A stretch of DNA of 61,565 nt from Chthoniobacterales bacterium (GTDB lineage Bacteria > Verrucomicrobiota > Verrucomicrobiia > Chthoniobacterales > UBA10450). The notes below the pieces were generated by a model. The model was not told where the DNA came from. It saw nothing but the letters and a program-made list of their open reading frames with translations, and made no database searches. Location of the stretch: the NCBI GenBank assembly GCA_013821455.1, contig JACDGS010000021.1, positions 1-61,565 on the forward strand, given 5' to 3'. A program made the position numbers and the translations under genes. Shown here in pieces: positions 19,744-35,681 of the stretch; the first letter of the stretch is position 1, and each line of letters begins with the position of its first letter.

Positions 19744-20966
19744 CAACCGCCGGTCCCGCGCAGAGTAGCGACCGGCGAAAGCAGGCCCGCCCGTCGCGCC
19801 GGCACATAGCTCGCGATCGCAACCGCAATCAGTGCGAGCAGCGTCGCCCAAAAATAATGCCGCCAATCCCACGTCACGAGGAAGTGGTTCGCATAGATCA
19901 AACCGCGAACGCGAATCGGAATGTATGAGACTGCCAGAGTGAGGAGCGCGCCGGCGACGCAACCGACGAGCGATCCCACGCCTGCGATCATCGCGCCTTG
20001 CCAGAGGAAGATCGATGAAATGTCGCCGCGCCGATAACCCATCGAGCGCAGTATCGCGATCTCTTTCACCTTTGAGAGCACGGTCATGGTGAGGACATTG
20101 AAGATGCCGAACCCGGCCAGAAGAATAATCAATGAGACCGTGATCGCGGCCGAGAGCCGGATGGTGAGAAACAATTGCAGGTTGCCTTCTTCGCGTTCCT
20201 GCCAGCTTTCCGTCTCGTGGCCGAAGAGCGTCTCGAAGCGCCCCGCGAGCGCGGGCGCGCGGTCCGGATCGCGCAGTTTGTAGATAATGAGCGAGGCCGA
20301 ATAAGGCTTGTGCAAAAGCGACTGTGCGACTTTGGCGTGACAATAAATACGCACCGAATCGACCACGCCGACGCCGCTGCGCGCGATCGCAGCGACGACG
20401 AACCGCCGATATTCGCCGTCCGGTGAGAGGAGCTGAACCGAATCTCCCGCCGTCACCAGCAGCAGCCCGGCGAGGCGCGATCCGAGCACGAGCGAGTTGG
20501 GATTATTACGAAAATCGTCCAGCGTTCCACTCTCGATCTGACTCGCTAGGTTGGTTGTCTGTAAATGAAGTGCGAGATCGATTCCGTAAAGATCGACCGT
20601 CGCGCTTTGGAACCCGGCGCGCGCTGTGAGCGTGCCGCGCAACACGGGTGAGCACGCGACGACATTCGAAAAACGCCGGCTCACGCGCATGATTTGCGAA
20701 GCGTCATCGATGCCTTGGAAGAGACGGCGATGCGCCGGATGCACCGGTAATTCGGTCGCTCCTTCCAGCGTTTGCACGCGCGCTTTCAAGGTGATGGCGC
20801 CGTTACTTCCGAGCGTGGAGTCGATGAAGGTTTTCGCGAAACCCTGCGTCTGCGCCTGCGTGCAGATAAAAATCGCCACGCCGAAAACCACGCCGCCGAG
20901 GCTGAGGAAAAAAGCGCGCTTCCGGTTCCCGAGAAAACGGAGCGCGATATAAATCGGCGGCGTCAC
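19743..20966 (-). CDS. ABC transporter permease (MacB/FtsX type)
   Basis: Protein of 407 aa. One N-terminal membrane segment, a periplasmic domain of about 220 residues (MacB_PCD-like), then three membrane segments ending in a basic loop (the FtsX-type topology). The cytoplasmic loop SKVKEIAILRSMGYRRGDISSIFLWQGAMIAG is the usual contact to the ATPase. The start is a GTG overlapping the TGA of the adaptor gene. No ATPase is in this operon; the nearest is the LolD-like gene at 26339, on the other strand. Confidence 0.88.
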   Translation of the reverse strand: MTPPIYIALRFLGNRKRAFFLSLGGVVFGVAIFICTQAQTQGFAKTFIDSTLGSNGAITLKARVQTLEGATELPVHPAHRRLFQGIDDASQIMRVSRRFSNVVACSPVLRGTLTARAGFQSATVDLYGIDLALHLQTTNLASQIESGTLDDFRNNPNSLVLGSRLAGLLLVTAGDSVQLLSPDGEYRRFVVAAIARSGVGVVDSVRIYCHAKVAQSLLHKPYSASLIIYKLRDPDRAPALAGRFETLFGHETESWQEREEGNLQLFLTIRLSAAITVSLIILLAGFGIFNVLTMTVLSKVKEIAILRSMGYRRGDISSIFLWQGAMIAGVGSLVGCVAGALLTLAVSYIPIRVRGLIYANHFLVTWDWRHYFWATLLALIAVAIASYVPARRAGLLSPVATLRGTGG

Positions 20967-22129
20967 CTGCGAGGGGCCGCCGGCGCGGAGTGGACGAGCC
21001 GTTGCCTAACGAATTGCCCCGGACGCAACTGATCCTGATCGGCCACGACGACGCGCGCGCCTTCCTTCACACCCGAAAGGGCTTCCGCAAATTCAAGCGT
21101 GCGATAACCGACCCGCACCGTGCGCGCTTCCACCATCGTGTGTGCGACAGCGAGCACCTGATCGACGAGCAGCGCGCGGGTCGGAATGAGCAGCGCATTT
21201 TCGTGGCGGCCGGTGATGATGTTCATTTCGCCGGTCATGCCGGCCATGAGATTTTCCGGCGGATTCTCCAACTCCAGCACGATCGTATAACGCTGCGTTT
21301 CCGGATCGGCCGCCGGTAAAATAGACGACACCGTGGCGTTAAACTGTCGCGTGCGATAAGCGTACATTTGCAGCTCGGCTTTCATTCCGGCTTTCACTTC
21401 ACCGACATCTTCTTCGTTCACTTCGCCGCGGACATAATTCTTCCGCGACGACACCGTAAGCAGCTCATTCCCGTCGGCGATCAACTCGCCATCGATCACG
21501 CGCAGGCCGGAAAGAATCCCATCCATCGGCGCGCGAATCTCCGTGTTCTTCATCTGCGCCTCGGCTTTTTGCGCAGCCGCGCGCAACGCTTCCAGATTAC
21601 GATCGCGCTCGATCCGCTCGTTCTTGAGCGCATCACGCAAACGGTTCGCCTCGCTTTTCGCCTTCTCGTATTCGACCGCCGGCACGTTGCTCAAACCCAC
21701 CAGTTTTTCGAGCCGCTGCACATTTCCCTCCGCGATTTTCAGCGGCTCCGAAGACGGCAATTCGAGCCGCGCACTTTCTGTCGCGGCCTGCAAATCGGCT
21801 TGCGCCTGTTTCAGCAAACGTGCTGTGCTTTCGTCGGTGATCGTCGCGAGCAATTCGCCTTTTCGCACTTGCTTCCCGATCGCACCGCGACCGGCGCTGA
21901 CCGGCTCGGCGAGCTGGATAAAGCCCGCGTTCTGCGCGCGCACATGATTCACAAACGACGGCTCGATCTGCACCGTGCCGTAAACCGCCGAGATGGCCGT
22001 GCCGCGCCTAACGACTTCAACTTCCGCCACCGGCCGCGACCAAAAGAAAAGCAGGACCAGGAACAGCGCAGCCAGCGCGAGGATGATCCAGACCGTTCGC
22101 TTCGAAATCCGTGGGCTCAAGGTTTGCAT
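20963..22129 (-). CDS. HlyD/AcrA-type periplasmic adaptor protein
   Basis: Protein of 388 aa. An N-terminal membrane anchor (VWIILALAALFLVLLFFW), a lipoyl half-motif, a long coiled-coil hairpin (about residues 110-200, rich in Glu/Arg/Ala) and the beta-barrel region (IRAPMDGILSGLRVIDGELI) are in the order of MacA-like adaptors. It would bridge the permease and an outer-membrane channel. The ATG at 22129 was chosen; the open frame further upstream is translated repeat DNA (copy D). Confidence 0.88.
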   Translation of the reverse strand: MQTLSPRISKRTVWIILALAALFLVLLFFWSRPVAEVEVVRRGTAISAVYGTVQIEPSFVNHVRAQNAGFIQLAEPVSAGRGAIGKQVRKGELLATITDESTARLLKQAQADLQAATESARLELPSSEPLKIAEGNVQRLEKLVGLSNVPAVEYEKAKSEANRLRDALKNERIERDRNLEALRAAAQKAEAQMKNTEIRAPMDGILSGLRVIDGELIADGNELLTVSSRKNYVRGEVNEEDVGEVKAGMKAELQMYAYRTRQFNATVSSILPAADPETQRYTIVLELENPPENLMAGMTGEMNIITGRHENALLIPTRALLVDQVLAVAHTMVEARTVRVGYRTLEFAEALSGVKEGARVVVADQDQLRPGQFVRQRLVHSAPAAPRR

Positions 22130-22150
22130 CTTACGGTGGGCGGCAAAACT

Positions 22151-22263
22151 GTCATCCCGGGCGGAGCGAGGGACCCCGCAAGCGTTCTTGGACGTTCCTT
22201 TTGCGAGCGACGCCGAATGACGCCTGCGGGCTCCCTCGTCGTGCTTCCCCGACTCGGGATGAC
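22151..22263. repeat. GTCATCC...GGATGAC palindromic element, copy D
   Basis: 113 bp, GTCATCCCGGGCGGAGCGAG to GACTCGGGATGAC, inside the export operon between the first TolC-like gene and the adaptor gene. Confidence 0.8.
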
Positions 22264-22289
22264 ACCCTTGTTGGTGACATTGCTGGTCA

Positions 22290-23618
22290 TCATTCCTTAG
22301 GGCGCCGTGAGCTGTCTTCGGTGAATTGAAAATAGCGGCCGGTCGCCCGATCCCATTCCGCGAGCGCGACGTTTTGCTGGTAGGCCGTGTCGAGGAGACC
22401 GCGGCGTGTCGCGAGCAGTTCCGTCTCGGCGGTGCGGAATTCCAATTGCGAAGCGAGTCCCTGCTGCCGGCTCTGTTCGACCGCGCCGACATTTTTTTCC
22501 GCGAGCGCGATGGATTTGCCTAACGAGTCGTGACGCGTGGCGATCGCCCGGAAATTATTTTGCAGGCCCGCCAGGGTCCGGCCGACACTGGCTTCCAGTT
22601 TTTGCAATTGCAGCTCATTGATTTCGCGCAGCGAGCGCTGGCGCAGCACCGCGCCGGCAACGCTGCCGTCGTCGATCACGCGCCAGGTGTAGCTCGCGCC
22701 GGGACTGATCTCGGAGGTCACGATGTCATTCGAGCGGTTCGCGGAACCGGAGCTGGCCTCGCGCAGATTCGTTAGGGGAATATAACGGCCGAAAACGGTG
22801 AGATCGATCCGCGGATAATAACCGGCCGCGGTGAGGCGCTGATCTTCGCGTGCCGCCCTCACGAGTAAGCGCGCGAGGCGAAGATCTGCGCGCCGGTCGA
22901 GCGCGCTGCCGGTTTCCTTTTCTAAAGCGAAATCGACCGCCGCAAAATGCAGCGTGCCTTCCGGCGAAGGCAACTTCGCGCCCGCGCCTAACGACTCGCC
23001 AAGCGCGGCCGCCAATTGCAAAATCGCCGCGCCGTAAGCGTGATGCGCCTCGTCGATTTGCGGATCGAGCTCGCGCGCCTGCAAGGTCGCGCTCGCGAGC
23101 GCGCCGCGATCCACCGTGCCGGCTTGATAGCGCGCTTCTTCGCCGCGTATGTTTTCGTCGAGTCGCTGACGTTGCGAGCGCCCCAGTTCTTCCAGCGCGC
23201 GATCGTAGAGCGCGGTATAAAAGGCGAGCCGCGCCGTGTGCAACTGCTCGACGAGCACGACGTTCAATTGCTGCGCCGCGATGAGCACTTCGAGATCGCC
23301 GCGCCGCAGGGAAGCCGGGATGCCCGCCTGGAAAAGCGGCTGCCGCAAATCGCCCTGCGCGAAAGCGAACGGCTGCACCGCCGGTTCGCCGGCGCGACTC
23401 CCGCCCTGCACTCCCACCGGGACGTCGAGAGCAAAATTCGGCAGCGCGAGCGAGCGGAAGACGAGGCGATGACCCGACGCCTGCTCAACCGCGACTCTGG
23501 CTTGCAGCACGTGTGGGTTGTTTTGGAGCGTGCGATTGAGCGCTTCAGCGATCGTTAGGCCAGGCGCGGCCAGCGGACTAACGATCGTGAAAAAAACGGC
23601 GCCCAAAAGGTGTTTCAC
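22290..23618 (-). CDS. TolC-like outer membrane efflux protein (1)
   Basis: Protein of 442 aa with a signal peptide (MKHLLGAVFFTIVSPLAAPG). Two OEP repeats follow, with long Ala/Gln/Glu-rich helices and the family opening LTIAEALNRTLQNNPHVLQAR. The GTG start overlaps the TGA of the second TolC-like gene, so the two are coupled. It would form the outer-membrane duct of the exporter. Confidence 0.85.
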   Translation of the reverse strand: MKHLLGAVFFTIVSPLAAPGLTIAEALNRTLQNNPHVLQARVAVEQASGHRLVFRSLALPNFALDVPVGVQGGSRAGEPAVQPFAFAQGDLRQPLFQAGIPASLRRGDLEVLIAAQQLNVVLVEQLHTARLAFYTALYDRALEELGRSQRQRLDENIRGEEARYQAGTVDRGALASATLQARELDPQIDEAHHAYGAAILQLAAALGESLGAGAKLPSPEGTLHFAAVDFALEKETGSALDRRADLRLARLLVRAAREDQRLTAAGYYPRIDLTVFGRYIPLTNLREASSGSANRSNDIVTSEISPGASYTWRVIDDGSVAGAVLRQRSLREINELQLQKLEASVGRTLAGLQNNFRAIATRHDSLGKSIALAEKNVGAVEQSRQQGLASQLEFRTAETELLATRRGLLDTAYQQNVALAEWDRATGRYFQFTEDSSRRPKE

Positions 23619-24991
23619 TTTTTTCCTCCAAGCGTCGCGGGCGGTCGCAGCGCCTGCCAGGCGCGGCCGGCGTCTTCCGACTTTTCGTTAGGCAGAAGCG
23701 CGGGCGCCGTTCCTCCTCCAACCGCGCGCTCGAGTCGCGCCAGCGCGGCGTTGTGCAAATAAATCGCGCTGAGGCGCGTCGTCCGCGTCCGCGTTACGTC
23801 ACCGGCGGCTTGTAAAACATCGAGCTGCGTCCCGAGTCCGGCGGAGAGATTGTTGTTGGCAAAGCCGAGTGCTTCGTCGGCGGTCCGCACATTTTTTGCC
23901 TGGGCCGCGAGCACGCTGTCGGCTTGTTGCAGATCGAGAAACGCACTCCGGACTTCGGATTCGATTCCCAGCTTTGTCGCTTTCAGAGAGAGGATCGCCG
24001 CGTCACGCCGCGCGCGTGTCGCGTCCATTCGCCCGCGCGTCGCGAAACCGTCGAAGAGATTCCAAGTCGTGTTCACGCCTGCGACGTAGCCGTGGTTAAA
24101 CTCCGGACCGACCAGCGGATCGCGCTCGCTGTAAGCCTCGTAGCCGGTGAAAAATTGCACATGCGGACGCGCCGCGCTGCGATCGACTTCGAGCTGTTTT
24201 TCCTCGATCACGATGTCCTTTTGCGCGGAGCGAATCTCCGGCCGATCGGTCGCTGCGCGCATGAGCGACGCGTTCAAATCGGGATGCCGCGGCTCGTACT
24301 GCAAAGTCCCGAACGCCTCAAAAGGCTTCGCGCCGGCCACGCGATTATCGATCCCGCAGAGGTCGCTCAGGTGGAGATAGGAATTTTGCAAATCGGTCTG
24401 CGCCTGGATCAGCTCCGGTTCTTCGTTTGCGAGTGCGACCTCGGCGCGGCTGGCATCGAGCGGACCAACGGTCCCAGCGCGCAAACGTTCGCGCGCGCTT
24501 TTTAGATCGCCGCGCAAAACCTCGGTCGATTGCTCGCGCAGATGGATTTTTTCGCGATTCAAAAGCAGCTCGTAGAAGGCAAGGCGGACGTCCATCGTGA
24601 CGCGATCGCTCACCACCTGCAGCTCGTCTTCCTGCTTCGCGAGCGTGAGCTGCGCGATCGCCGTTTCGTTGCTCGTCGCGCCGCCGGTGTAGAGATTTTG
24701 CACCACGCGGACCGAAGCGTTGTAGTCGTCCGGACGCAGCCGCGACGATTCCGCCCGCTCGCGCCGGCGGTAAAGTCCATTCGTCACCACCGAGGGCAAG
24801 TAACCGGCGCGCGCCTCCAATTCCCCACCGTGCGCGGCCGTGATTTTTTTGCGCGCGATCGCGATTTCCGGGTTCCGATTTTGCGCCAGCCTAACGACGT
24901 CGTCGATCGTGTAACGCGGCGCGGCCCGGGCGCTCGTGCACGACAAAACCGCGCCAAGCAAAAGAAAGCCGCTGCGGAAAATCGGTCGCAT
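23615..24991 (-). CDS. TolC-like outer membrane efflux protein (2)
   Basis: Protein of 458 aa with a signal peptide (MRPIFRSGFLLLGAVLSCTSARA). The OEP opening YTIDDVVRLAQNRNPEIAIARKKI and a late Gly-x-Gly-Thr-Gln-Leu-Asp turn are typical. It is the first gene of the export operon; GGAGA lies eight bases before the ATG at 24991. It is only distantly similar to the following paralogue, so this operon carries two different outer-membrane components for one permease. Confidence 0.85.
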   Translation of the reverse strand: MRPIFRSGFLLLGAVLSCTSARAAPRYTIDDVVRLAQNRNPEIAIARKKITAAHGGELEARAGYLPSVVTNGLYRRRERAESSRLRPDDYNASVRVVQNLYTGGATSNETAIAQLTLAKQEDELQVVSDRVTMDVRLAFYELLLNREKIHLREQSTEVLRGDLKSARERLRAGTVGPLDASRAEVALANEEPELIQAQTDLQNSYLHLSDLCGIDNRVAGAKPFEAFGTLQYEPRHPDLNASLMRAATDRPEIRSAQKDIVIEEKQLEVDRSAARPHVQFFTGYEAYSERDPLVGPEFNHGYVAGVNTTWNLFDGFATRGRMDATRARRDAAILSLKATKLGIESEVRSAFLDLQQADSVLAAQAKNVRTADEALGFANNNLSAGLGTQLDVLQAAGDVTRTRTTRLSAIYLHNAALARLERAVGGGTAPALLPNEKSEDAGRAWQALRPPATLGGKK

Positions 24992-25121
24992 GGGATTTTC
25001 TCTCCGTCGGTCCCCCATTGCGCAACAAAAATCCCGCGGGCGGTGGTCGTTTAATGATTTCATGCTTGGCTCTTTGCGGGCTTGCCGCCAGGCTTCGCCT
25101 GCGCCAAGGTTGGCGCTTCCG

Positions 25122-26225
25122 ATGAGCAAAATCCCGATCGCGATTGTAGGTGTTGGCAACTGTGCCAGCTCGCTCGTGCAGGGGATGAGTTTCTATGGTC
25201 ACGCCCCGGAAAATGGCGCCGCCGTGGGTCTGATGCATCAGAAAGTCGGGCCTTATTCGCCTAACGACATCACGGTCGTTGCTGCTTTCGATGTCGATCG
25301 GCGCAAGGTCGGGATCGACCTGAGCGAGGCGATTTTTGCGCTGCCAAATTGCACGAAAGTTTTCTGCAAGGACATCGCGAAAACGGGCACGATCGTGAAG
25401 ATGGGCTGTGTCCTCGACGGCGTTGCGGAACACATGGCCGCTTACGAACCGGCGCGCACTTTTCTGCCGCTCGCCAAGGAATCGACGCGCGAGCGCATCA
25501 TCGCCGAGCTGAAGGATTCAGGCGCGCAGATCATGGTGAATTATTTGCCCGTCGGCTCGGAAGAAGCGACGCGGTTCTATGTCGGCTGCGCGCTCGAGGC
25601 CGGACTCGGTTTAGTGAACAACATTCCGGTTTTCATCGCCAGCGATCCGGTTTGGGCGAAACGCTTCGAGGAAAAAAATCTGCCGATCGTGGGCGACGAC
25701 ATCAAAGCGCAGATGGGCGCGACCGTGCTCCATCGCACCCTCGTCGATCTCTTTCGCAAACGCGGCGTCAAAGTCGAGCGTACCTATCAACTCAACACCG
25801 GCGGCAATACCGATTTCCTAAACATGCTCAATCGCAGCCGACTGGCTTCGAAAAAAGAGTCGAAAACCGAAGCGGTGCAATCGGTTATCGGCAATCGTCT
25901 TTCTCCCGATAATATTCACATCGGTCCGAGCGATTACGTGCCGTGGCAGAACGACAACAAGGTTTGTTTTATTCGCGTGGAAGGCCGGCTCTTCGGCGAC
26001 GTGCCGATGGAGATCGACCTCAAACTTTCCGTCGAGGATTCACCGAATTCCGCGGGCGTGGCGATCGACGCCATTCGTTGCTGCAAGCTCGCGCTTGATC
26101 GCGGCAAGGGTGGCGTGCTTCATTCCGCGTCTGCCTATTTTTCCAAACATCCCGCGATCCAACTGACCGACGACGAGGCCTACCAGCGGGTCGAGGAATT
26201 CATTCGCGGCGAGCGCGATTCGTGA
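25122..26225 (+). CDS. Myo-inositol-1-phosphate synthase
   Basis: Protein of 367 aa. The N-terminal NAD loop is IAIVGVGNCASSLVQG. The family core LPVGSEEATRFYVGCALEAG and LNTGGNTDFLNML, and the Lys-rich active-site loop (SRLASKKESKTEAVQS), are all seen. It turns glucose-6-phosphate into inositol-1-phosphate. The short form matches the bacterial/archaeal type. The ATG at 25122 starts exactly at the NAD fold; the longer frame is shadow of the divergent gene's leader. It opens the lipid/glycan region that also holds a nucleotidyltransferase and two CDP-alcohol phosphotransferases. Confidence 0.92.
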   Translation: MSKIPIAIVGVGNCASSLVQGMSFYGHAPENGAAVGLMHQKVGPYSPNDITVVAAFDVDRRKVGIDLSEAIFALPNCTKVFCKDIAKTGTIVKMGCVLDGVAEHMAAYEPARTFLPLAKESTRERIIAELKDSGAQIMVNYLPVGSEEATRFYVGCALEAGLGLVNNIPVFIASDPVWAKRFEEKNLPIVGDDIKAQMGATVLHRTLVDLFRKRGVKVERTYQLNTGGNTDFLNMLNRSRLASKKESKTEAVQSVIGNRLSPDNIHIGPSDYVPWQNDNKVCFIRVEGRLFGDVPMEIDLKLSVEDSPNSAGVAIDAIRCCKLALDRGKGGVLHSASAYFSKHPAIQLTDDEAYQRVEEFIRGERDS

Positions 26226-26338: not shown

Positions 26339-27043
26339 ATGAGCGATCAAATCTGGCTGAGCTGCCGCGATCTCGAGCGCTACCTCGGTGAAGAAGATTC
26401 GCGCGTGCACGCGTTGCGGGGCGTCTCGCTCGATCTTGAACCAGCCACAGTCCACGCCGTCGTCGGGCCATCCGGCTGCGGCAAGAGCACCTTGCTCTAC
26501 ATCCTCGGCCTCCTTGACCAACCCGACGGCGGCAGCCTAACGATCGATGGTCATGCCATCTCTGGCCTGCCGGATGACGAGCTCGCGCGCAAACGCAACG
26601 AGCTCCTCGGCTTCATCTTCCAATTTCATTTTCTGCTCGAGGATTTCACCGCGCAGGAGAACGTCATGATCCCGATGCGCCGCCTCGGTCGCCTAACGGA
26701 AAGCGAAATGCTGGCGCGCGCCGCGCAATTGTTAGGCGAAGTCGGGCTCGGAGCGAAATTGCGCCGGCCGAGCCGCCACCTTTCCGGCGGCGAACAGCAG
26801 CGGGTCGCGATCGCGCGCGCGCTCGCGAACAACCCGCGCGTCATCCTGGCCGACGAACCGACGGGCAATCTCGACGCCGCTAATTCCAATCGTGCTTTTC
26901 AGCTCCTCAAAAAAATCGTGCGCGAAGAACGCAAGGCCCTCCTCCTCGTTACCCATAATTCCGCGATCGCGGAAGCGTGCGACTGGATTCACGAGATGCA
27001 GGATGGCGTGATCGTCGGCAGCCATCCGCGCGAGCACGAGTAA
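26339..27043 (+). CDS. ABC transporter ATPase (LolD/MacB type)
   Basis: Protein of 234 aa. Walker [11 protein letters not shown]-loop [10 protein letters not shown], signature LSGGEQQR, Walker [13 protein letters not shown] and the switch His in LLVTHN are intact. This class serves FtsX-fold permeases. It has no permease next to it; the best local candidate is the permease at 19743-20966 in the divergent operon. Confidence 0.92.
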
Positions 27044-27076: not shown

Positions 27077-28333
27077 GTGAGCCTACCTATCGGCCCCGGA
27101 ATTCGGAAGACGCGCGTGCCTCGACTGCAAGCAATGGCAGAGGCGGCCCGCGCGCGAAGGCCGCCGAAATGGTTCGTTAGGGAGGTTTTCCTCCCATTCG
27201 CCGTCACCCGGCTGCTGCTCATTCTCGTGGCCTGGGGTGGTTTTCATCTCGTAAAGAAACCCTTCAAAACCGGCAAATGGGAAGTCGGAAGCGATGGGAT
27301 GGTCAGCGCGATTCAGGCCCAGCTTTCTCCGGATGTTCACCCGGTGCTAAACATGTTTTCGCGTTGGGACGGCGAATGGTATCTCTCGATCGCGCAACAC
27401 GGCTACCGGTTTATTCCCGGCGAAGAATCCAACGTGGCGTTCTTCCCGCTCTACCCAAGTGCGGTCCGCATTCTCCATTTCGCCTTTCCCTTTCAGAGCG
27501 ATGCCGGTTGGCTTTTCCTTGGCATCCTGCTCTCGAATGGAGCGTGCCTCCTCGCGCTGACTTGGTTGTATCAATTGGTTCTTTTAGACTACGGCGACCG
27601 GGTGGCGGCGCGCACGGTTCTCTACCTGTGTGTTTTTCCGACCACTCTTTTCCTCTCTGCTTTTCACTCGGAGGGGCTTTTTCTCGCTTGCGTGCTCGGG
27701 TCTTTTTACTTCGCGCGGCAGGGAAGATGGTTCTGGGCCGGGCTCTTTGCTGGTCTTGCTGCGATCTGTCGGGCGCCGGGAGTGCTGGTGGTGATCGCCA
27801 TCGCCTTCGAATACCTGCAGCAAAAGAAATTCCGGTGGCGCGAGATCAAGGCGGATTGCCTTGGGCTGCTTCTAGCTCCGCTCGCCACCGTTGCTCACCT
27901 GGCCTACTTCAAATGGCGATTCGACGATTGGTTTGTCATCTTCAAAGTCGAAGGCGTTAAAAGCTGGTCGCGCAAGCTGACTCCACCCTGGGTCACATTT
28001 GCCACTTTTTTCCAGCGTCCTCATGCGGGCAAAGGCACGCACGATTCCTATCTCGACCTCCTGTTCACTCTGATACTGATCGCATTGACGGTCCTCGTTG
28101 CCTGTAAGTTGCGCTTGAGTTACGCGGTCTATGCCGTCACCACCGTCATCTTTATTACCTCGTGGGGTTATCTCACCTCGATTCCGCGATTCGGGGTGGT
28201 CATTTTTCCAGTGATGATCGCGCTCGCTTTTCTCGGCCGGAATGAAAAATTTCACCTAGCCTATCTGGCCATCTCCAGCGCGATTGCCGCTTACTGCATG
28301 TTTACCTTTTCGCATTGGGGCTGGTTGGGCTGA
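27077..28333 (+). CDS. PIG-V/Gpi18-like mannosyltransferase family membrane protein
   Basis: Protein of 418 aa (GTG start) or 399 aa from the in-frame ATG at 27134; neither has a clear ribosome site. About ten membrane segments. The first outer loop has the family hallmark RWDGEWYLSIAQHGY followed by VAFFPLYP, as in the PIG-V/Mannosyl_trans2 group of lipid-linked sugar transferases. The sugar and lipid acceptor are unknown. The gene end overlaps the convergent flippase gene by 43 bp. Confidence 0.8.
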   Translation: MSLPIGPGIRKTRVPRLQAMAEAARARRPPKWFVREVFLPFAVTRLLLILVAWGGFHLVKKPFKTGKWEVGSDGMVSAIQAQLSPDVHPVLNMFSRWDGEWYLSIAQHGYRFIPGEESNVAFFPLYPSAVRILHFAFPFQSDAGWLFLGILLSNGACLLALTWLYQLVLLDYGDRVAARTVLYLCVFPTTLFLSAFHSEGLFLACVLGSFYFARQGRWFWAGLFAGLAAICRAPGVLVVIAIAFEYLQQKKFRWREIKADCLGLLLAPLATVAHLAYFKWRFDDWFVIFKVEGVKSWSRKLTPPWVTFATFFQRPHAGKGTHDSYLDLLFTLILIALTVLVACKLRLSYAVYAVTTVIFITSWGYLTSIPRFGVVIFPVMIALAFLGRNEKFHLAYLAISSAIAAYCMFTFSHWGWLG

Positions 28334-29862
28334 GCGCGCTTGAAGAGGTGTTCGAGCACATCGCGGTCTCTTGGTTCCAATCCTAGAATCCGCCAAGCGA
28401 GCAGGTAGCCTGCGAGGTAAAGGCCGGCGACCGCGAATTCCCAGGCGATGCCATGAGTCAGAAGACGCGCGCCCAGGGCCACGGGCAATGGGAGCAAGGC
28501 CGCGAGCCAGGGCTTGAGCAGCGCGCGCCAGGGCCAGCGCCAGTTCAGCAGCCAGGAGATTTCCGCTCCCCGTAGAATACCCTGGAGCGAATAGGGGACG
28601 AGCATTCCGATGGCGGCGCCGAGCGGTCCGAGGGCGGGAATCAGGATCAGGTTCAACCCGATTGCGGCGAGAAAAGCGACGGTGGAGTTGATCAGATTCA
28701 ACCCCGGCCGTTCGATCATGAGAATCGTCTCGCCCAAGCCGACGAAAGCGTTGATCGCGCAGGCGGCGCCGATAATCGCGACCCAAACACCACCCCGATA
28801 AAAGGAGGAGCCGAAAATCGCCATGAGAGCGCCGCCGGAGAGCGCGAAGATGAGGAGCACCGGCAGGAGAATGGCCAGCATCCAACGCGCGAGGTATCCG
28901 TAGCTCTCTTCCGCGGCCCGCAACTCTCCCGAGGAAATCTGGCGCGCCACCACGGGAGTGAAAATGGGCACGAACACTCCTCCCACTTTGCGCAGACCAC
29001 CCGCGAGCTGCACCGCGGCCGCGTAGATCCCGAGGGTCTGCAGCGTGACCCCGGGCGCACGACCGACGAACCAGCCGAGCATGATCACGTCGATGTGCAT
29101 CACGCCCAGATTGAGCAGGTCGTAGAGTGCAATCGGTGCGGAGGCGCGGACGAGCCTTTGCGTGAGCGCAGCGTCCTCCTCCTGCCCATGCGCTGGCGGC
29201 CGACTCGTGTAGAGACGGTGGGCGAGAAAAAACGCCACCATCCCGGAAGCGAGCGTCCCCACAATCGCCGCGATCTCCGGCGCGAGCTCTCGTATCCCCA
29301 AGGCGAGCGCTCCGAGCAGTGCCGCGGCCGTTCCCAAGCTTTCCGTTAGGCCGCGCGAATAAATGTCGTGGTGCATCACCGCCATACCGCGCGAGAGAGC
29401 GTTGCTGACCCGGTAAAGCGCGAGCCCGGGAATTGCCAGCATCATGATCGAAGCGGCGCGTGCCAGCTCGGGGCGCAACCCGAAGCGCGGGCCGAACCAC
29501 CAGGTCAGAACCGAAGCGACGAAGGCGAGGCCGAGGCCGCTCCCGACGGCAATAAAGAGGGAGGCGCGGAAGATTCGTCGGCTCCCGGCGCGGTCGTCGG
29601 CCGCCTCGGCTTTGGCGACGAAAGCGATCGCGCTGTAGTCCAGCCCGAGGGTGGCGAATTTGCTCAGGAGATCCATCGACGCCCAGGCGAGCCCGAAAGT
29701 CCCGAGGACCGCGCTCCCGAGAAGTCGCGCGACCAGGAGCATGAAGATGGCCCGCAGATTCGAAGCGAGGAACGCGAGCGTGCTGAAGAACGCCCCCCGG
29801 GCCAGGACCGCGCCGTGCGCCGAGGCCTCGGGAGTCGCGGGTGCGCGAGACATATCCTTCAC
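28291..29862 (-). CDS. Polysaccharide/lipid flippase (MATE-like, Wzx type)
   Basis: Protein of 523 aa with about fourteen membrane segments, of the oligosaccharide flippase fold (SNLRAIFMLLVARLLGSAVLGTFGLAWASMDL... start). It would flip a lipid-linked saccharide. The GTG at 29862 overlaps the TGA of the glycosyltransferase gene (GTGA); an ATG three codons in is the alternative. The reading frame runs far upstream but only as shadow. The 3' end is antisense to the mannosyltransferase gene. Confidence 0.88.
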   Translation of the reverse strand: MKDMSRAPATPEASAHGAVLARGAFFSTLAFLASNLRAIFMLLVARLLGSAVLGTFGLAWASMDLLSKFATLGLDYSAIAFVAKAEAADDRAGSRRIFRASLFIAVGSGLGLAFVASVLTWWFGPRFGLRPELARAASIMMLAIPGLALYRVSNALSRGMAVMHHDIYSRGLTESLGTAAALLGALALGIRELAPEIAAIVGTLASGMVAFFLAHRLYTSRPPAHGQEEDAALTQRLVRASAPIALYDLLNLGVMHIDVIMLGWFVGRAPGVTLQTLGIYAAAVQLAGGLRKVGGVFVPIFTPVVARQISSGELRAAEESYGYLARWMLAILLPVLLIFALSGGALMAIFGSSFYRGGVWVAIIGAACAINAFVGLGETILMIERPGLNLINSTVAFLAAIGLNLILIPALGPLGAAIGMLVPYSLQGILRGAEISWLLNWRWPWRALLKPWLAALLPLPVALGARLLTHGIAWEFAVAGLYLAGYLLAWRILGLEPRDRDVLEHLFKRAQPNQPQCEKVNMQ

Positions 29863-31013
29863 GCCTGCGCCGCGGCCGCGTCGTGATAAACCTCCAGCGT
29901 CTCCCGCGCGCAACGATCCCACGAAAAATCCCGGGCCCTGCCTAACGAGTGCTGGCGAAGCGAATCCCGCAGCGCCGGCGAACGCACCAGCTCGCGCAGG
30001 GCGTCGCCGAATTTCGCCACATCCTCCGCCGGAAAAAGTAGCGCCGCGCCGCCCGTAACCTCGCGAAACGGCGGAATATCGCTCGCCACTACCGGGCAAC
30101 CGCAAGCCATCGCCTCGAGCATGGGAAGGCCGAAACCTTCGTAAATCGACGGCTGGAGCAAAGCTTCCGCCGCCTGGATCAACGCGACCACATCGGGCCG
30201 CGCCACCTCCGAGAGCCAGACCACCCGCTCGCGGATGTGGAGGCTTTCCGCCAGCCTAACGAGACCACCGCGCGCTTTCTGCCGCTGCAAAAGCACCAGG
30301 CGCCAGGGCGCCGGCACCGCCGCGGCAAAAGCGGCCAGCGCGAGGGCGTGGCGTTTGGTCGGCGCGTTCGCCCCCACGAGCAGGAGATAAGGCGAGTCGG
30401 TGCCGGTCAGTTGCGCGGCGCGCTTTCGAGCCACGTCGCGATTTTGCGGCGGGATGAAGCAGGCGTCGGGACCTTGCCGAATCACCGTGATGCGTTTCGC
30501 TGCCGCTGGTTCGAGCGCACAAATTCGATCCGCGGTCGCTTGCGATACCGTGATCAGGCGAGTCGCTTTGCGGAGGGATCGCCAGACGGCTTGTTGATAA
30601 TATTTGCTCTTCACCAGCCGTTCGAATCCCTGAAGATGCAACGCCGGGCGTTCGATCGACATCACATCGTGGATCGTAGCGACACTCGCGCAGGGGACGC
30701 CGCGCGGCATAATATTGGCCGGGCTATGAAAAACGTCGATGCCAGAAAAAGAAGCGTAGCGTTGCGGCCAGAACAGCACCAGGGGAGAAGCCGGTCCGGG
30801 ACGCACCGTCACCTCGGAGACGTTCGGCGCGGTCGAGAGTGGCCGCGGTGCGAGCCGATGCGCCCAGAATAAAAAGTGATCTTCTCGACTCAAACCCGGC
30901 AAGCGTTGGACGAGGGCCTCCAGGTAGGCGCCGATACCGCTCGGCTTCTCGCGCACGTAACGGGCGTCGAGCGCGATGCGGAGTGGCGCAGTGGAGTTCG
31001 TTCTTGCTCGCAT
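29859..31013 (-). CDS. GT4-type glycosyltransferase
   Basis: Protein of 384 aa with the GT-B fold. The N-terminal IALDARYVREKPSGIGAYLEAL and C-terminal E-x7-E motif (YEGFGLPMLEAMACGCPVV) mark family GT4, retaining. It is probably a mannosyl- or rhamnosyl-like transferase; the donor cannot be told. It is coupled to the flippase, so both likely build one surface glycan. Confidence 0.9.
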   Translation of the reverse strand: MRARTNSTAPLRIALDARYVREKPSGIGAYLEALVQRLPGLSREDHFLFWAHRLAPRPLSTAPNVSEVTVRPGPASPLVLFWPQRYASFSGIDVFHSPANIMPRGVPCASVATIHDVMSIERPALHLQGFERLVKSKYYQQAVWRSLRKATRLITVSQATADRICALEPAAAKRITVIRQGPDACFIPPQNRDVARKRAAQLTGTDSPYLLLVGANAPTKRHALALAAFAAAVPAPWRLVLLQRQKARGGLVRLAESLHIRERVVWLSEVARPDVVALIQAAEALLQPSIYEGFGLPMLEAMACGCPVVASDIPPFREVTGGAALLFPAEDVAKFGDALRELVRSPALRDSLRQHSLGRARDFSWDRCARETLEVYHDAAAAQA

Positions 31014-31084: not shown

Positions 31085-31879
31085 ATGAAGAAGCGAATAT
31101 TTATCACCGGCGCGAGCTCGGGCATCGGTCGTGCGACCGCGGAGCTTCTCGTTAGGCAAGGTCACGAAGTCTGGGGCACTTCGCGCGATCCGGCGCGCTT
31201 GCCGGTAGACGCTCGCTTCCATCCGATCGCGCTCGATTTGGCCGACTCAAAGAGTGCGCGCGAAAGTTTTCAGCGCGCGCTCGCCGAGGCCGGTCATTTC
31301 GACGTGGTGATCAACAACGCCGGGAGCGGCCACTTCGATCCGGGCTCCACCATCACTGAGGAAATCGTGCGCGAGCAATTCCAGGTTCTCGTCTTCGCGC
31401 AGATCGAAATCTTCCAGGCCGCACTCGCCGCTATGAGGGAGCGGGGCAGGGGACTGATCATCAACGTCACCTCCATGGCCGCGCGTTTACCCGTCCCCTA
31501 TATGAGCGCCTATAACGCGGCTAAAGCTGCCATGGCTTCGTTCACCATGACCGTCCAACTGGAGTTGCGTGCTTCTTCCATCCGCGTGGTCGATGTGCAA
31601 CCGGCCGACATTTGCACTTCGTTCAACGAAGCGGTCGTCCAGCCGGCGACAACCGATCGCGCGCTCGCGCAGGTCTGGAAACAAATCGACGCGAATCTGC
31701 AGGCCGCGCCGCCGCCGACTTTGGTCGCGCGGCGATTGAGCCTCCTGATCGCACAGAAAAATCCTCCCGCGCGGGTCACGGTGGGCGGGCTTTTTCAGGC
31801 CGGGGTCGCCCCTTTCATTTTCAGGCTGCTCCCGCAGGGCGTGCGGGTGTGGGGTCTGAAGAGGTATTATCGGTTGTGA
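31085..31879 (+). CDS. Short-chain dehydrogenase/reductase
   Basis: Protein of 264 aa. TGASSGIG cofactor loop, NNAGSG, catalytic Ser in NVTSMAA and Y-x3-K in YNAAKAAM are complete (classical SDR). The C-terminal part is slightly longer and hydrophobic, as in lipid-active SDRs. Because a serine palmitoyltransferase-like gene is close by, a 3-ketosphinganine-reductase-like role is possible but unproven. The GTGA overlap couples it to the nucleotidyltransferase. Confidence 0.88.
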   Translation: MKKRIFITGASSGIGRATAELLVRQGHEVWGTSRDPARLPVDARFHPIALDLADSKSARESFQRALAEAGHFDVVINNAGSGHFDPGSTITEEIVREQFQVLVFAQIEIFQAALAAMRERGRGLIINVTSMAARLPVPYMSAYNAAKAAMASFTMTVQLELRASSIRVVDVQPADICTSFNEAVVQPATTDRALAQVWKQIDANLQAAPPPTLVARRLSLLIAQKNPPARVTVGGLFQAGVAPFIFRLLPQGVRVWGLKRYYRL

Positions 31880-32628
31880 GCGAGGGGAACTTTTCCGAGG
31901 CGGTGGTGCTCATGGCCGGTTCCGGTTCGCGCCTGCGCGCGTCCGGCGCCGTCCTTCCGAAAGCGCTCATCCCCGTTCTCGGACGCCCTCTTTTCTCCTT
32001 TGCGCTCGACGCGCTCCGGACGGTGGGAATCACCACTCTGCACGTCGTCGTCGGCAACGAAAGTGCGACGCTGCTCGCGGGACTGGAGCCGCTCGTTCCC
32101 GCGGAGATGCGACTGCATGCCATTAATAATCCGGATTGGGAAAAACAGAACGGCGTCTCGCTCCTGTGCGCGGCGCCGCACCTGACCGCACCGTTTTTGC
32201 TTCTGATGGGCGATCACCTTTTCGAGCCGCAACTGCTCGAGGCGTTCGTTAGGCAGGCGGATCCGGCGGTGCTGAATCTCGCGGTCGATCGCAAAATCGA
32301 TTCCGTCTTCGATCTCGACGACGCGATGAAAGTCGAGACGCGCGAGGGCCAGATCGTGGCGATCGGGAAAACGCTGACGGATTACGACGCGATCGACACC
32401 GGCGTTTTCGTTTGTCCGCCAGAGATTTTTTCCTATCTCCGGCATGCCTGCCGGGGAGGCGACTGCAGCCTGGCCGACGGCGTGCGGTTGATGGCGACGG
32501 ACGGGAAAGCGCGCGTCATCGACATCGGCGCGGCCTGGTGGCAGGACGTGGATGACAGCGGGATGCTGGGCGAGGCGGAAAGCGCGGCGGCCGCTCGCCT
32601 AACGAGCGCGCTGCGCGCCAGCCATTGA
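31876..32628 (+). CDS. Sugar/inositol-phosphate nucleotidyltransferase
   Basis: Protein of 250 aa. The nucleotidyltransferase start A-x-V-L-M-A-G-S-G-S-R-L, the Lys in LPKALIPVLGRPL and the metal Asp in LLMGDHLFEP are present. The best fit in this context is an inositol-1-phosphate cytidylyltransferase: it is short, lacks the left-handed helix domain and stands between inositol-phosphate synthase and a DIPP-synthase-like phosphotransferase. Glucose-1-phosphate or alcohol-phosphate transferases remain possible. It is coupled by GTGA to the SDR. Its end overlaps the convergent phosphotransferase gene by 30 bp. Confidence 0.8.
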   Translation: MSEGNFSEAVVLMAGSGSRLRASGAVLPKALIPVLGRPLFSFALDALRTVGITTLHVVVGNESATLLAGLEPLVPAEMRLHAINNPDWEKQNGVSLLCAAPHLTAPFLLLMGDHLFEPQLLEAFVRQADPAVLNLAVDRKIDSVFDLDDAMKVETREGQIVAIGKTLTDYDAIDTGVFVCPPEIFSYLRHACRGGDCSLADGVRLMATDGKARVIDIGAAWWQDVDDSGMLGEAESAAAARLTSALRASH

Positions 32629-33657
32629 CTTGAGCGCGAGGAGCGAACTGACCGCTGCGACCGCGCCTAACGAGTGCAGAATCCAGGCGGGCAGGCCGGC
32701 GAGCGCGAGGAGAAGGAAGGCGACCAGGGCGACGTCGCGTTTGGTCAGTTGCAGCAGGATCGCGGTGAATCGTTCCCCGAAAAAAAGGAGGCCGCCGCCG
32801 TCGAGCAGGCGTCGTTGCCGAGGGTAAAGCGTCGCTGCTGTTGCGCCGGCGGGCGTCCCCCGCGCGGAACGGGCCGGGATGGCGAGGAGCAGCTCGTTCG
32901 TCGGGATGAGGAGCGCGACGGCGACGCCTTCGCCGAGTCGCCCGAGGCCGAAACCGAGGCTCAGGACCATGAGCAGATTCCCCACGGTGTCGCACCAGGT
33001 ATCGAGCTGCGCGCCGCGAGGGGAGGCGAGATGTTTGGCGCGGGCGATTTCGCCGTCGCAGCCGTCGAGGATGCTGTAAAGCTGGAAAAAAAGCAGACCG
33101 ATGACGATGTCGGAGTAACGGCCACGCGCCAAAAAAACCGAGCCGGCGAGGGGCAGAATAAAAATGAGCAAAGTCCACTGACTCGGCGTGATCGAAGTGT
33201 GCAGCAGCGTGCGGGTGAGAGCGCGCGAGACCGGACGATTAACGAACCGCGAAACGAGTCCGTCCTGAGGTTTGCCGGCTCCGCGGAGGAATCGTTTTTC
33301 GCAGGCTGGAATCTGGGCCGGGTTTTCCAGGATTTCCCAATCGTCGCCGACCTTAGGTGGCCCCGTGGCCGCGGCTTCGAGCGCGCGGTTGCGATGCAGG
33401 AAAATTCTCGTGCCGATTGAGAACTCGGCGATGTCGTTAGGCGGGGAGACGAAGTCGCCGGGCGACAGCCTTGGATGGCACGGAACGAAGCGAGCGGCGG
33501 GTGCGACGTCCGCGGACCAGTCGATGAAAATTTCCGCTCTCTCCGCGCGGTGCGCGGCCCATTCCTTTATCTCAAGGGCGAGGCGATCCAGCTGGCGCAG
33601 GCCGGCGACTCTCCAGTGCGCGGACTCGTCGGCGAGAATGACGACCCGGCGCACCAT
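32599..33657 (-). CDS. CDP-alcohol phosphotransferase (DIPP-synthase-like, with N-terminal extension)
   Basis: Protein of 352 aa. The CDP-alcohol motif D-G-x2-A-R-x8-G-x3-D-x3-D is complete (DGEIARAKHLASPRGAQLDTWCD). The block GKPQDGLVSRFVNRPVSRAL, then TPSQWTLL, closely resembles the junction of archaeal IPCT/DIPPS fusion enzymes. The first 130 residues look like a worn nucleotidyltransferase-type domain with no visible catalytic loop. About six membrane segments. The stop TAG comes from a TCGTTAGG copy (32598-32605) that on the other strand encodes Leu-Thr of the convergent gene. Confidence 0.8.
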   Translation of the reverse strand: MVRRVVILADESAHWRVAGLRQLDRLALEIKEWAAHRAERAEIFIDWSADVAPAARFVPCHPRLSPGDFVSPPNDIAEFSIGTRIFLHRNRALEAAATGPPKVGDDWEILENPAQIPACEKRFLRGAGKPQDGLVSRFVNRPVSRALTRTLLHTSITPSQWTLLIFILPLAGSVFLARGRYSDIVIGLLFFQLYSILDGCDGEIARAKHLASPRGAQLDTWCDTVGNLLMVLSLGFGLGRLGEGVAVALLIPTNELLLAIPARSARGTPAGATAATLYPRQRRLLDGGGLLFFGERFTAILLQLTKRDVALVAFLLLALAGLPAWILHSLGAVAAVSSLLALKSMAGAQRAR

Positions 33658-34794
33658 TTAGTGGGCGAGAGAGCGCTCGTAGATCCGATAGGTTTTGTAG
33701 CGGTGCGCGCCGATCGCGGAGAGGAAACGGTTGATAAGATGGTTGCTCTCCAGGGTGAGGCTCAGCTCGCCGACGTAGCCGCGTTTGATCATGGCGTCTT
33801 CGATGATGCGCAGGACGAGCATCTCGGCGATGCCGCTGCGGCGATGCTCCGGTTTCACCCCGAGGGCGACGAGCCGCGCGGTCCGAATGCGGCTCTTGTA
33901 GTAGAGGAGCTTGGCGAGCCCGATAGGCAAGCCGAAGGTCGTGAGGCGGCCGTTGATTTTCTTGAAGGCGACGTTGATGTCGGGCACGCAAAGGATGAAC
34001 CCGGCGGGCTCGTTCCCGATCTCCGCGATGAGGGTGAACTCCGGGACGGCGATCGGCTTGAGTTCTTTCACGAGGTGATCGAACTCCGCGCTGGTGAACG
34101 GAACGAAGCCCCAGTTTTTTTCCCACGCGGCATTGTAGATGTCGCGCAAACGGCGGCTCTCGCCGGCCACGTCGCGCAGATTGACCGACCGAATGTTCAC
34201 TCCCATCTGGTCGCCGAAACGCGCGGAAATACGGCGGAGGCGCTGCGCCGTTTTCTCCGGCTCGGAGAACCACCACGCATACCAGTCCATTACTTGGCGC
34301 AGGCCGCACGATTCGAGCAGCGGGGCGTAGTAGGGCGGGTTGTGTGGCGTGAGCAGCATGGGCGGATGTTCGAAACCGTCGATGAGCAGGGCGCAGACGT
34401 AGTTCGTGGAATAATCGATTGGGCCCATGATGTCGGTGCGCCCTTTCGCGCGCAGCCAGTCGCCCGCGGCTTCGATCAGGGCCAGCGCGACGGCGGGATC
34501 GTCCACACTCTCGAAGAGACCGAAGCAGCCCACGTTTGTGCCGTGGAGTGCGTTGTAGTTCGGGTCGTCGCTCGCCATGATGCGGCCGACGATTTTTCCC
34601 TCTCGGCGCGCGAGGAAGAGCGCGGCGTCGCCGTGCTCATAAAACGGATTTTTTTTGCGATCGAGAAATTCCTTCCGCTCAAGGATCAGCGGCGGGACCC
34701 AGACCGGATCGTCGCGGTAAATCTCCCAGGGAAACTTGATGAAAGCGTCGCGCTCCGCGGTGGAATGAACTTCGGTGACTTGAATCGTGTTCAT
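33658..34794 (-). CDS. GNAT-fold N-acetyltransferase-like protein
   Basis: Protein of 378 aa. The N-terminus (FIKFPWEIYRDDPVWVPPLILERKEFLDRKKNPFY) and the C-terminal acetyl-CoA loop (ALGVKPEHRRSGIAEMLVLRIIEDA) mark the YghO-like group of GNAT proteins. Members often sit with lipid or sphingolipid genes, but the substrate is not known. Its stop abuts the start of the following phosphotransferase (TAA-ATG) and its start overlaps the previous gene (ATGA). Confidence 0.82.
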   Translation of the reverse strand: MNTIQVTEVHSTAERDAFIKFPWEIYRDDPVWVPPLILERKEFLDRKKNPFYEHGDAALFLARREGKIVGRIMASDDPNYNALHGTNVGCFGLFESVDDPAVALALIEAAGDWLRAKGRTDIMGPIDYSTNYVCALLIDGFEHPPMLLTPHNPPYYAPLLESCGLRQVMDWYAWWFSEPEKTAQRLRRISARFGDQMGVNIRSVNLRDVAGESRRLRDIYNAAWEKNWGFVPFTSAEFDHLVKELKPIAVPEFTLIAEIGNEPAGFILCVPDINVAFKKINGRLTTFGLPIGLAKLLYYKSRIRTARLVALGVKPEHRRSGIAEMLVLRIIEDAMIKRGYVGELSLTLESNHLINRFLSAIGAHRYKTYRIYERSLAH

Positions 34795-35681
34795 AGCAGA
34801 CGGCGGCAGACGGCGTTCTCTCCGCGGAGAAGGGCGAAGAGGAGCAGATTAAATAGCGTGATCTCTGCGACGAAATACCAGACCGGCTGGCCGAGGCCGA
34901 GCAACGCGAAGAGCAGAATCATGCGGGGATTGGTCGCGAGCAGATTCAGCCAGGGAAGGAACGGCCGGCTCGCTTCCCGGTAGGCTTGGGCGATTCGCTC
35001 GTCGTTAGGCGGCACGGCCGCGCGGCGCAGTTCGTGGAGCCGAGGCGCGAGCCATTCCTGCTGCCGGGTGTAGTTAAGATAGAGACGAGAGAGGAATTTT
35101 TTCGCCGGTTGGTCTCGCCAGCGGAGACGCCCGTATTCCGCCTCTAATCTCGCCGAAGAATCCAGCTCCGCGCCTTTGCCTTCCGCGAAATGAAGCCAGG
35201 CGTTCCGAAAATAATCGGCCGCCGCGCTCTGTAGTGAATGGCTGGCCCCGGCGGCGAGCGCGAGCAGCCAGACGAGCTGCGAGCCGCCCCCCGCGGTGTA
35301 GCGCAGGCAGAGGTGGGCGTAGACGCTGGCGAAGACAAGGTTATCCACCAAGCCGTCGAGGGCGCGACCCGTGCGGCTTCCTTGATTCGTTAGGCGGGCG
35401 AGCTGGCCGTCGGCGTTGTCGAAAGCATTCGAGAGCACATGCAGGCCCATTCCGAGCAGATTCACGCGCAGATCGCGATAGTAGTAAAGATGACCGGCTA
35501 CAATTCCGAGCGCGCCGCCAGCGAGCGTGACCTGGGCCGGCGTCATCCTCAGCCGGGCGCATAGGAGCGCGAGCTGGAAGCCGACCTTGCGATAAAACCA
35601 GAGGTCGAGAAAACTTTCGACCGCGCGCGCCTTGCAAGTCGATTCGAGGGCCCGTGCCGGCGTTTCCGACGAGGCGGTCAT
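34791..35681 (-). CDS. CDP-alcohol phosphotransferase (2)
   Basis: Protein of 296 aa. The motif is seen as DNADGQLARLTNQGSRTGRALDGLVDN (both Asp pairs present), followed by five to six membrane segments and a long charged loop in the middle (about 165-225). It is unlike the first copy outside the motif, so it probably has another acceptor. It is translationally coupled to the GNAT gene. Confidence 0.85.
   Translation of the reverse strand: MTASSETPARALESTCKARAVESFLDLWFYRKVGFQLALLCARLRMTPAQVTLAGGALGIVAGHLYYYRDLRVNLLGMGLHVLSNAFDNADGQLARLTNQGSRTGRALDGLVDNLVFASVYAHLCLRYTAGGGSQLVWLLALAAGASHSLQSAAADYFRNAWLHFAEGKGAELDSSARLEAEYGRLRWRDQPAKKFLSRLYLNYTRQQEWLAPRLHELRRAAVPPNDERIAQAYREASRPFLPWLNLLATNPRMILLFALLGLGQPVWYFVAEITLFNLLLFALLRGENAVCRRLL

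Follow-up and report, generated by a model that had tools for sequence, protein, structure and literature searches.

A conserved block of facing genes

We analyzed a 61,565-nt stretch of contig JACDGS010000021.1 (the window), from a Chthoniobacterales bacterium of family UBA10450 (assembly GCA_013821455.1). Near its center, two CDP-alcohol phosphotransferases (CAPT1 and CAPT2) lie among genes resembling those for ceramide synthesis (Table 1). A preliminary description had pointed to a nucleotidyltransferase (NTase) converging on CAPT1, with an inositol-phosphate synthase 6 kb upstream and a second CDP-alcohol enzyme, an LpxO-like hydroxylase and a serine palmitoyltransferase (SPT)-like enzyme following. 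All of these genes were recovered. The NTase and CAPT1 open reading frames (ORFs) share 30 bp at their 3' ends, and the myo-inositol-1(3)-phosphate synthase (MIPS) gene lies 5.6 kb upstream of the NTase. Two genes had been overlooked: the acyltransferase next to CAPT1, which is the key gene, and a KdsR-like short-chain dehydrogenase/reductase (SDR). The SDR and NTase genes overlap by 4 nt, as do those for CAPT2 and the acyltransferase. With the NTase/CAPT1 convergence, these overlaps make the layout look like two facing operons.

Table 1. Genes of the cluster and its possible members, with the match that best identifies each. Starts of MIPS, SDR, the hydroxylase and SPT were picked within longer ORFs, using family matches and relatives as a guide.
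Feature	Position in window	Strand	Supporting match
MIPS	25119-26225	+	TIGR03450 431 bits, PF01658 128 bits
SDR, 3-ketosphinganine/3-ketoceramide reductase-like	~31085-31879	+	NF049977 KdsR 154 bits
NTase, proposed CTP:inositol-1-phosphate cytidylyltransferase	31876-32628	+	NF041135 N-half 114.7 bits
CAPT1, with degenerate N-terminal NTase-like domain	32599-33657	-	NF041135 C-half 66.9 bits
GNAT-fold acyltransferase, bacterial ceramide synthase family (aca/bCerS/YghO)	33658-34794	-	YghO 253 bits
CAPT2	34791-35681	-	PF01066 39 bits
OlsC/LpxO-type 2-oxoglutarate acyl hydroxylase	35689-~36399	-	NF052565 265 bits, PF05118
SPT-like alpha-oxoamine synthase	36458-~37711	-	best PDB match Sphingobacterium SPT 261 bits
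GT4 glycosyltransferase, uncertain member	29859-31013	-	TIGR04047 99 bits, MshA 86 bits
Polysacc_synt/MATE-like flippase, uncertain member	28291-29814	-	PF01943 63 bits

Conservation of the neighborhood, proposed earlier as a check, was evident. The same block, in which SPT–CAPT2–ceramide synthase–CAPT1 faces NTase–ketoreductase, recurs within one Chthoniobacterales family. It was seen in most of 30 neighborhoods from a whole-genome search of relatives, and also on named Chthoniobacterales, Spartobacteria and Udaeobacter contigs of GTDB genomes, a set that partly overlaps the first. The block is kept in dozens of metagenome-assembled genomes (MAGs), so the gene arrangement is more than chance. 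NTase orthologues (>200 bits) were found in 32 of 37 same-family genomes, the window's own included, and in 0 of 21 genomes of other families in the order. Strong CAPT1 matches are likewise limited to the family, and almost every relative has the SDR adjoining the NTase. Of the 41 clusters having the NTase, SPT and the acyltransferase, 40 contain CAPT1 or a CAPT1-like replacement, and six apparently contain both. Where CAPT1 is missing, in a second group of clusters, a different CAPT also bearing a degenerate NTP_transf_3 domain sits within the block (e.g. L126:8681-9985 (+)).

Several variants were noted. In one same-genus relative, CAPT1 is tandemly duplicated (L148:3994-6215 (-)), and CAPT2 was not detected at that locus. 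About 10 of the clusters examined also encode a radical SAM protein (e.g. L131:10836-11819). A contig labeled Acidobacteria (L163, QIAB01000086.1) has a typical Chthoniobacterales-like cluster with an NTase of 56% identity, which perhaps was mis-binned or transferred.

NTase and CAPT1 resemble the two halves of one fusion enzyme

The best NCBIfam model for the NTase was NF041135, the Thermococcales fusion of CTP:inositol-1-phosphate cytidylyltransferase (IPCT) and DIPP synthase (DIPPS). The match covered model positions 2-214, and the next model scored 72.5 bits. The three top PDB sequence matches (4jd0, 2xme and 4mnd) are every one an IPCT. For the AlphaFold2 model (pLDDT 92.5), Foldseek placed IPCT structures at ranks 1-18, followed by RmlA, GalU and MurU. 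Catalytic residues R19, K29 and D113 are invariant in the family; those of the Thermotoga IPCT are R16, K26 and D112 (PMC12275187). The NTase is thus closest to IPCT on three counts: profile, PDB sequence and predicted fold. We propose that it is a CTP:inositol-1-phosphate cytidylyltransferase, inositol being the inferred substrate. A role as a glucose-1-phosphate or other sugar-1-phosphate uridylyl- or thymidylyltransferase is less likely, as such profile and fold matches rank below IPCT.

CAPT1 had been thought to look like the second half of the archaeal fusion, and NF041135 was indeed its best model (positions 199-326), ahead of archaetidylinositol-phosphate synthase (43.4 bits) and phosphatidylinositol-phosphate (PIP) synthase (23.4 bits). 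PDB sequence matches were 4o6m (AF2299) and 4mnd (IPCT-DIPPS). The predicted model (pLDDT 89.6) matched the folds of AF2299 (4o6n, 4q7c), IPCT-DIPPS (4mnd) and PIP synthases. Both CAPT1 and CAPT2 contain the D-x2-D-G-x2-A-R...G-x3-D-x3-D motif of CDP-alcohol phosphotransferases (PF01066). In CAPT1 this catalytic motif (DGCDGEIAR...GxxxD...D) is intact and invariant in relatives. We read the first ~110 residues of CAPT1 as a degenerate NTase-like domain; several relatives do not have it. Scores of both the NTase and CAPT1 fall below the NF041135 equivalog cut-off (580 bits, for the whole fusion), which makes them relatives of that equivalog and not members.

In Myxococcota, a Nitrospirota MAG and others beyond the family, NTases with 39-48% identity are fused to a CDP-alcohol transferase in a single ORF. 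Three fusions were scanned, and these matched the IPCT/DIPPS model over both halves at 233-261 bits, likewise below the cut-off. Such fusions suggest that the product of the NTase feeds this CAPT family. At the Nitrospirota locus L165, MIPS (424 bits), a CAPT like archaetidylinositol- or phosphatidylinositol-phosphate synthases (126 bits) and the NTase–CAPT fusion stand in a row. This row (L165:7993-13862) also holds a large MMPL-like membrane protein, and there are no ceramide genes nearby.

The CAPT2 motif (DNADGQLAR...GRALDGLVD) is also intact, and the gene is conserved in relatives. Yet the preference for the DIPPS half over CDP-diacylglycerol (CDP-DAG)-dependent models, which holds for CAPT1, fails for CAPT2: the DIPPS half scored 30.3 bits, versus 36.6 for archaetidylinositol-phosphate synthase and 36.3 for PIP synthase (NF040950/NF045883, ~36 bits each). 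CAPT2 may perform a second CDP-alcohol transfer, either adding or moving another phospho-alcohol or acting on a glycerolipid. At L127:13086-14813 and other loci of the same genus (g7), CAPT2 is strongly diverged and inverted, and its neighbor is a HAD hydrolase, reminiscent of the HAD protein in the B. vulgatus alternative cluster.

These matches bear on a rival explanation, in which CAPT1 and CAPT2 are classical phosphatidylinositol (PI) or PIP synthases acting on CDP-DAG and the NTase belongs to an unrelated sugar nucleotide pathway, with a GT4 glycosyltransferase, a flippase and an epimerase nearby. CAPT2 scores about equally for PIP synthase and archaetidylinositol phosphate synthase, and glycan-type genes do flank the cluster. 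But a single fusion model covers the NTase with one half and CAPT1 with the other, their counterparts in other phyla are joined in one protein, and the NTase matches glucose-1-phosphate enzymes less well by both profile and fold. We regard this explanation as highly improbable.

Links to inositol

MIPS is the only such gene in the genome; its TIGR03450 score is below the cut-off of 638 bits. Across relatives, MIPS was present in 28 of 32 NTase-bearing genomes versus 5 of 26 without the NTase. Because this co-occurrence is confounded by family, we set it aside as sole proof of inositol and used positional linkage instead. In all 13 genomes with both genes on one contig, representing seven genera, MIPS lies 6-24 kb from the NTase and always on the SDR side. 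Of 14 unlinked contigs of known length, 10 end within 7 kb on that side, so that most unlinked cases are contigs too short to reach MIPS. The linkage cases are less independent than their number implies, since ancestry is shared within one family.

The genome has three other CDP-alcohol transferases, PgsA, PgsA and PssA, each scoring above its cut-off, and no separate PI synthase was found among its CDP-OH transferases. This leaves CAPT1 and CAPT2 as the sole candidates in the superfamily for making an inositol lipid. Inositol is thus supported in three ways: by MIPS linkage, by NTase–CAPT fusions elsewhere and by the assignment of the other CDP-alcohol enzymes to PgsA, PgsA and PssA.

The head group could instead derive from another phospho-alcohol, such as phosphoglycerate or glycerol phosphate, activated by the NTase in the manner of CpgD. 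The product would then be of the ceramide phosphoglycerate type, with MIPS a neighbor for some other purpose. There is a precedent: CpgD, a Caulobacter sphingolipid enzyme encoded in a sphingolipid gene region, is IPCT-like, with 4JD0 as its top fold match and the same conserved R/K/D residues, yet its product is CDP-glycerate (PMC12275187). Synthesis of CPG2 in Caulobacter likewise uses a CDP-alcohol transferase, CC_1159/CpgA. Against this, some of the closest out-of-family relatives of the NTase are fusions that match both IPCT/DIPPS halves, one of them adjoining MIPS; MIPS linkage is repeated in seven genera; and the ORFs that were examined around the core block included no recognizable ceramide kinase-like gene. 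We therefore consider a phosphoglycerate-type head group quite unlikely.

Ceramide backbone genes and possible lipid modification

The acyltransferase aligns end to end with YghO of E. coli BL21 (38% identity over 380 aa). YghO has been listed as a homologue of Caulobacter CC_1154, an acyl transferase needed for dihydroceramide (PMC9386255), and it is through YghO that the window gene is tied to CC_1154. A tandem of FemAB/GNAT-like genes was also considered as a ceramide synthase candidate and rejected: 46087-47187 has no similarity to YghO, whose only significant match in the window is the acyltransferase beside CAPT1. The tandem (44881-47187 (-)) encodes Acetyltransf_6/FemAB-like proteins that are not ceramide synthase homologues.

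For the SPT-like protein, the best PDB matches were Sphingobacterium SPT (3a2b/8guh, 261 bits), versus 243 bits for KBL, and identity to E. coli BL21 Spt is 36%. Among NCBIfam models, bioF (344 bits) scored higher than the SPT models (315 and 309 bits), with none above cut-off. The ceramide gene context favors SPT over a BioF-like identity. KdsR was the second-best NCBIfam model for the SDR, under its cut-off of 400. This classical KdsR-like SDR occupies the place of the CerR-type extended SDR, for which the window offered only an epimerase-like ORF with 25% identity. A dedicated acyl carrier protein (ACP) and an acyl-ACP synthetase (AasR) had no convincing match in the window.

The OlsC/LpxO-like enzyme may 2-hydroxylate the ceramide acyl chain. 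Other relatives have an unrelated PF04116 FA_hydroxylase beside SPT. The PF04116-type and LpxO-type genes were never seen together, which fits a common job in acyl hydroxylation. Of 24 relatives whose available sequence extends >2 kb upstream of SPT, 18 have both the PF04116-type hydroxylase and a desaturase. The sampled desaturase carries the PF08557 Lipid_DES domain, that of the eukaryote-type sphingolipid delta-4 desaturase; it had zero matches among PDB sequences. Examples of the PF08557 desaturase and PF04116 hydroxylase beside SPT are L133:17376-18401 (-) and L161:15513-16124 (-), with a similar arrangement in ~20-26 relatives. A search with one relative's protein found no delta-4 desaturase in the window's own genome.

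A proposed route to inositol-phosphate sphingolipids

What is computed here comprises family-level gene identities, intact catalytic motifs, conserved clustering, NTase–CAPT fusion elsewhere and MIPS linkage. Judged from sequence, the locus probably encodes a Kennedy-type pathway that makes an inositol-phosphate sphingolipid by activating the head group instead of the lipid. MIPS would convert glucose-6-phosphate to inositol-1(3)-phosphate, which the NTase would join with CTP to give CDP-inositol. For the backbone, SPT would condense serine with an acyl donor to form ketosphinganine. N-acylation of the YghO/bCerS type and reduction by the KdsR-like SDR, in either order, would then yield (dihydro)ceramide, a possible substrate for 2-hydroxylation by the LpxO/OlsC-like enzyme. 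CAPT1, its own NTase-like domain having degenerated, would use CDP-inositol supplied by the separate cytidylyltransferase and pass phosphoinositol on to ceramide, or to a close precursor of it, with release of CMP. We infer the ceramide acceptor, the order of steps and what CAPT2 does; for CAPT2, as for the final transfer, gene position is the basis.

The preliminary description had suggested that inositol may be the CDP-activated partner, with a ceramide or other alcohol as the acceptor. Homology, fusion, MIPS linkage and the conserved ceramide genes support that suggestion well, with inositol phosphate the probable NTase substrate and ceramide the likely acceptor.

Several observations weigh against the CDP-inositol–ceramide route. 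All NCBIfam scores in the cluster are below equivalog cut-offs. Fold rank leaves the substrate of the NTase unfixed, given that CpgD, with the same top match, makes CDP-glycerate. Within the family, the association of MIPS with the NTase is not significant (Fisher P = 0.18). Four of the 32 NTase genomes yielded no MIPS, including G001 (96% complete), and a long contig, G006, has none across 27 kb on the SDR side. The fusions in other phyla are not beside ceramide genes, and so linkage has to carry the ceramide acceptor. Finally, there are two CAPTs and one NTase, and CAPT2 is left without an explanation.

This surplus of CAPTs is pertinent to a different acceptor. CDP-inositol may be made as proposed, with CAPT1 or CAPT2 transferring phosphoinositol to diacylglycerol (DAG) to form PI, as in Rhodothermus; ceramide would be linked by a later exchange, as modeled for B. 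vulgatus, or not at all. A CDP-inositol route does exist in Rhodothermus, and the B. vulgatus model puts DAG first, with HAD conversion to PI-dihydroceramide after. Of the two CAPTs in the cluster, one would be free for DAG, and a HAD phosphatase adjoins the diverged CAPT2 in several relatives. CAPT1, though, abuts the ceramide synthase gene and remains in the ceramide block in relatives. The window cluster, moreover, has no recognizable exchange enzyme of the AUR1 or HAD type, and the HAD protein of a relative has no match in the window. We consider transfer to DAG unlikely.

Returning to ceramide as the acceptor, we judge the chances about even that CAPT1 is a one-step CDP-inositol:ceramide phosphoinositol transferase and that soil Verrucomicrobia of this family make hydroxylated, often delta-4-desaturated inositol-phosphoceramides. 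Such one-step, Kennedy-type synthesis would be unlike that of eukaryotes and B. thetaiotaomicron, where the head group comes from PI by AUR1-type exchange.

Chthoniobacterales ('Spartobacteria', Udaeobacter) are common in soil. An under-recognized dominance of Verrucomicrobia there is the subject of a reference cited in PMC9969633. If the proposal is true, soil Verrucomicrobia have a plant- or fungus-like sphingolipid, made by a route that in other bacteria has only been predicted for ceramide, and fungi or plants need not be the source of the hydroxylated or desaturated inositol-phosphoceramides of soil lipidomes. The Lipid_DES-type desaturase beside a bacterial SPT also bears on the history of sphingolipid desaturation.

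Comparison with known systems

Myxococcus xanthus reportedly makes ceramide phosphoinositols. Sphingolipid potential in Verrucomicrobiota has previously been noted from Spt-like genes, and a literature search combining Udaeobacter with sphingolipid returned no relevant titles.

The archaeal and Thermotoga IPCT-DIPPS enzymes (4mnd, 2xme, 4jd0; NF041135) share with the window a cytidylyltransferase half, a CDP-alcohol transferase half, the R/K/D residues and the DGCDGEIAR motif. Here, however, the halves are split into two convergent genes scoring far below the equivalog cut-off, and CAPT1 retains a degenerate NTase-like domain. The context also differs: IPCT-DIPPS serves the compatible solute di-inositol phosphate, whereas the window genes lie in a sphingolipid context.

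Synthesis of lipids from CDP-inositol is itself not new. The preliminary description held that known lipid routes activate the lipid, which does not always hold: a CDP-inositol phospholipid pathway in Rhodothermus is attributed to Jorge, Borges and Santos 2015 in PMC9246714, and CDP-inositol use is predicted in the same paper for the B. vulgatus-type cluster, which belongs to bacteria that make inositol dihydroceramides. As cited there, the Rhodothermus pathway resembles ours in using CDP-inositol as the head-group donor for a membrane lipid; its acceptor is a glycerol-ether lipid, versus the ceramide proposed for the window cluster. The B. vulgatus-type cluster (Heaver 2022, PMC9246714) is by description alike in having MIPS, a CTP-type NTase and a CDP-alcohol transferase in sphingolipid makers, and B. 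vulgatus lipid extracts contain Cer-PI. In the order proposed there, inositol goes to DAG first and then to ceramide by a HAD protein. By contrast, the window has two CAPTs, has the ceramide backbone genes in the same block and comes from a different phylum. Queried with a relative's protein, the HAD component had no match in the window; it is present in several relatives. A CDP-inositol sphingolipid route has thus been proposed for part of Bacteroidetes, yet we found no test of it in the literature. What is new here is that the genes for ceramide synthesis share a single conserved block with those for the proposed CDP-inositol chemistry of the head group. With ceramide genes, cytidylyltransferase and transferase together, the block is a compact set for addressing one-step inositol-phosphoceramide synthesis.

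In the Caulobacter ceramide phosphoglycerate pathway (CpgA-D), as described in the parts of PMC12275187 and PMC11324152 consulted, ceramide genes, an IPCT-like cytidylyltransferase and a CDP-alcohol transferase likewise share one region. That pathway differs in its phosphoglycerate head group and its start at a ceramide kinase, and those parts of the two papers describe no MIPS link. The CerR-type SDR and dedicated ACP/acyl-ACP synthetase found beside SPT in Caulobacter and E. coli BL21 have no convincing counterparts in the window. B. thetaiotaomicron BT_1522-1526 (PMC9246714, PMC8791184) shares with our proposal the product class, inositol-phosphoceramide, but employs CDP-DAG, a PIP phosphatase and an AUR1-like synthase, with no CDP-inositol.

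Flanking genes

Two uncertain members adjoin the SDR side of the cluster. The GT4 glycosyltransferase, which some relatives also have close to the cluster, may further decorate the head group. The flippase, which recurs near the SDR in many relatives, is possibly a lipid flippase. Around MIPS (19743-25159 (-) and 26339-27043 (+)) are genes for an ABC ATPase, a MacB-like permease, HlyD and two outer-membrane proteins of the TolC type. In relatives, the ATPase and a TolC-type gene again lie close to the cluster, which makes a lipid exporter possible. Decoration or movement of the lipid could be the task of the GT4 protein, a PIG-V-like protein, the flippase and the MacB/HlyD/TolC-type exporter, although their link to it is weak. 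The PIG-V-like mannosyltransferase (PF04188, 41 bits; 27077-28333 (+)) is encoded between MIPS and the cluster and, by analogy with yeast and its inositol-phosphoceramide, could glycosylate the inositol lipid.

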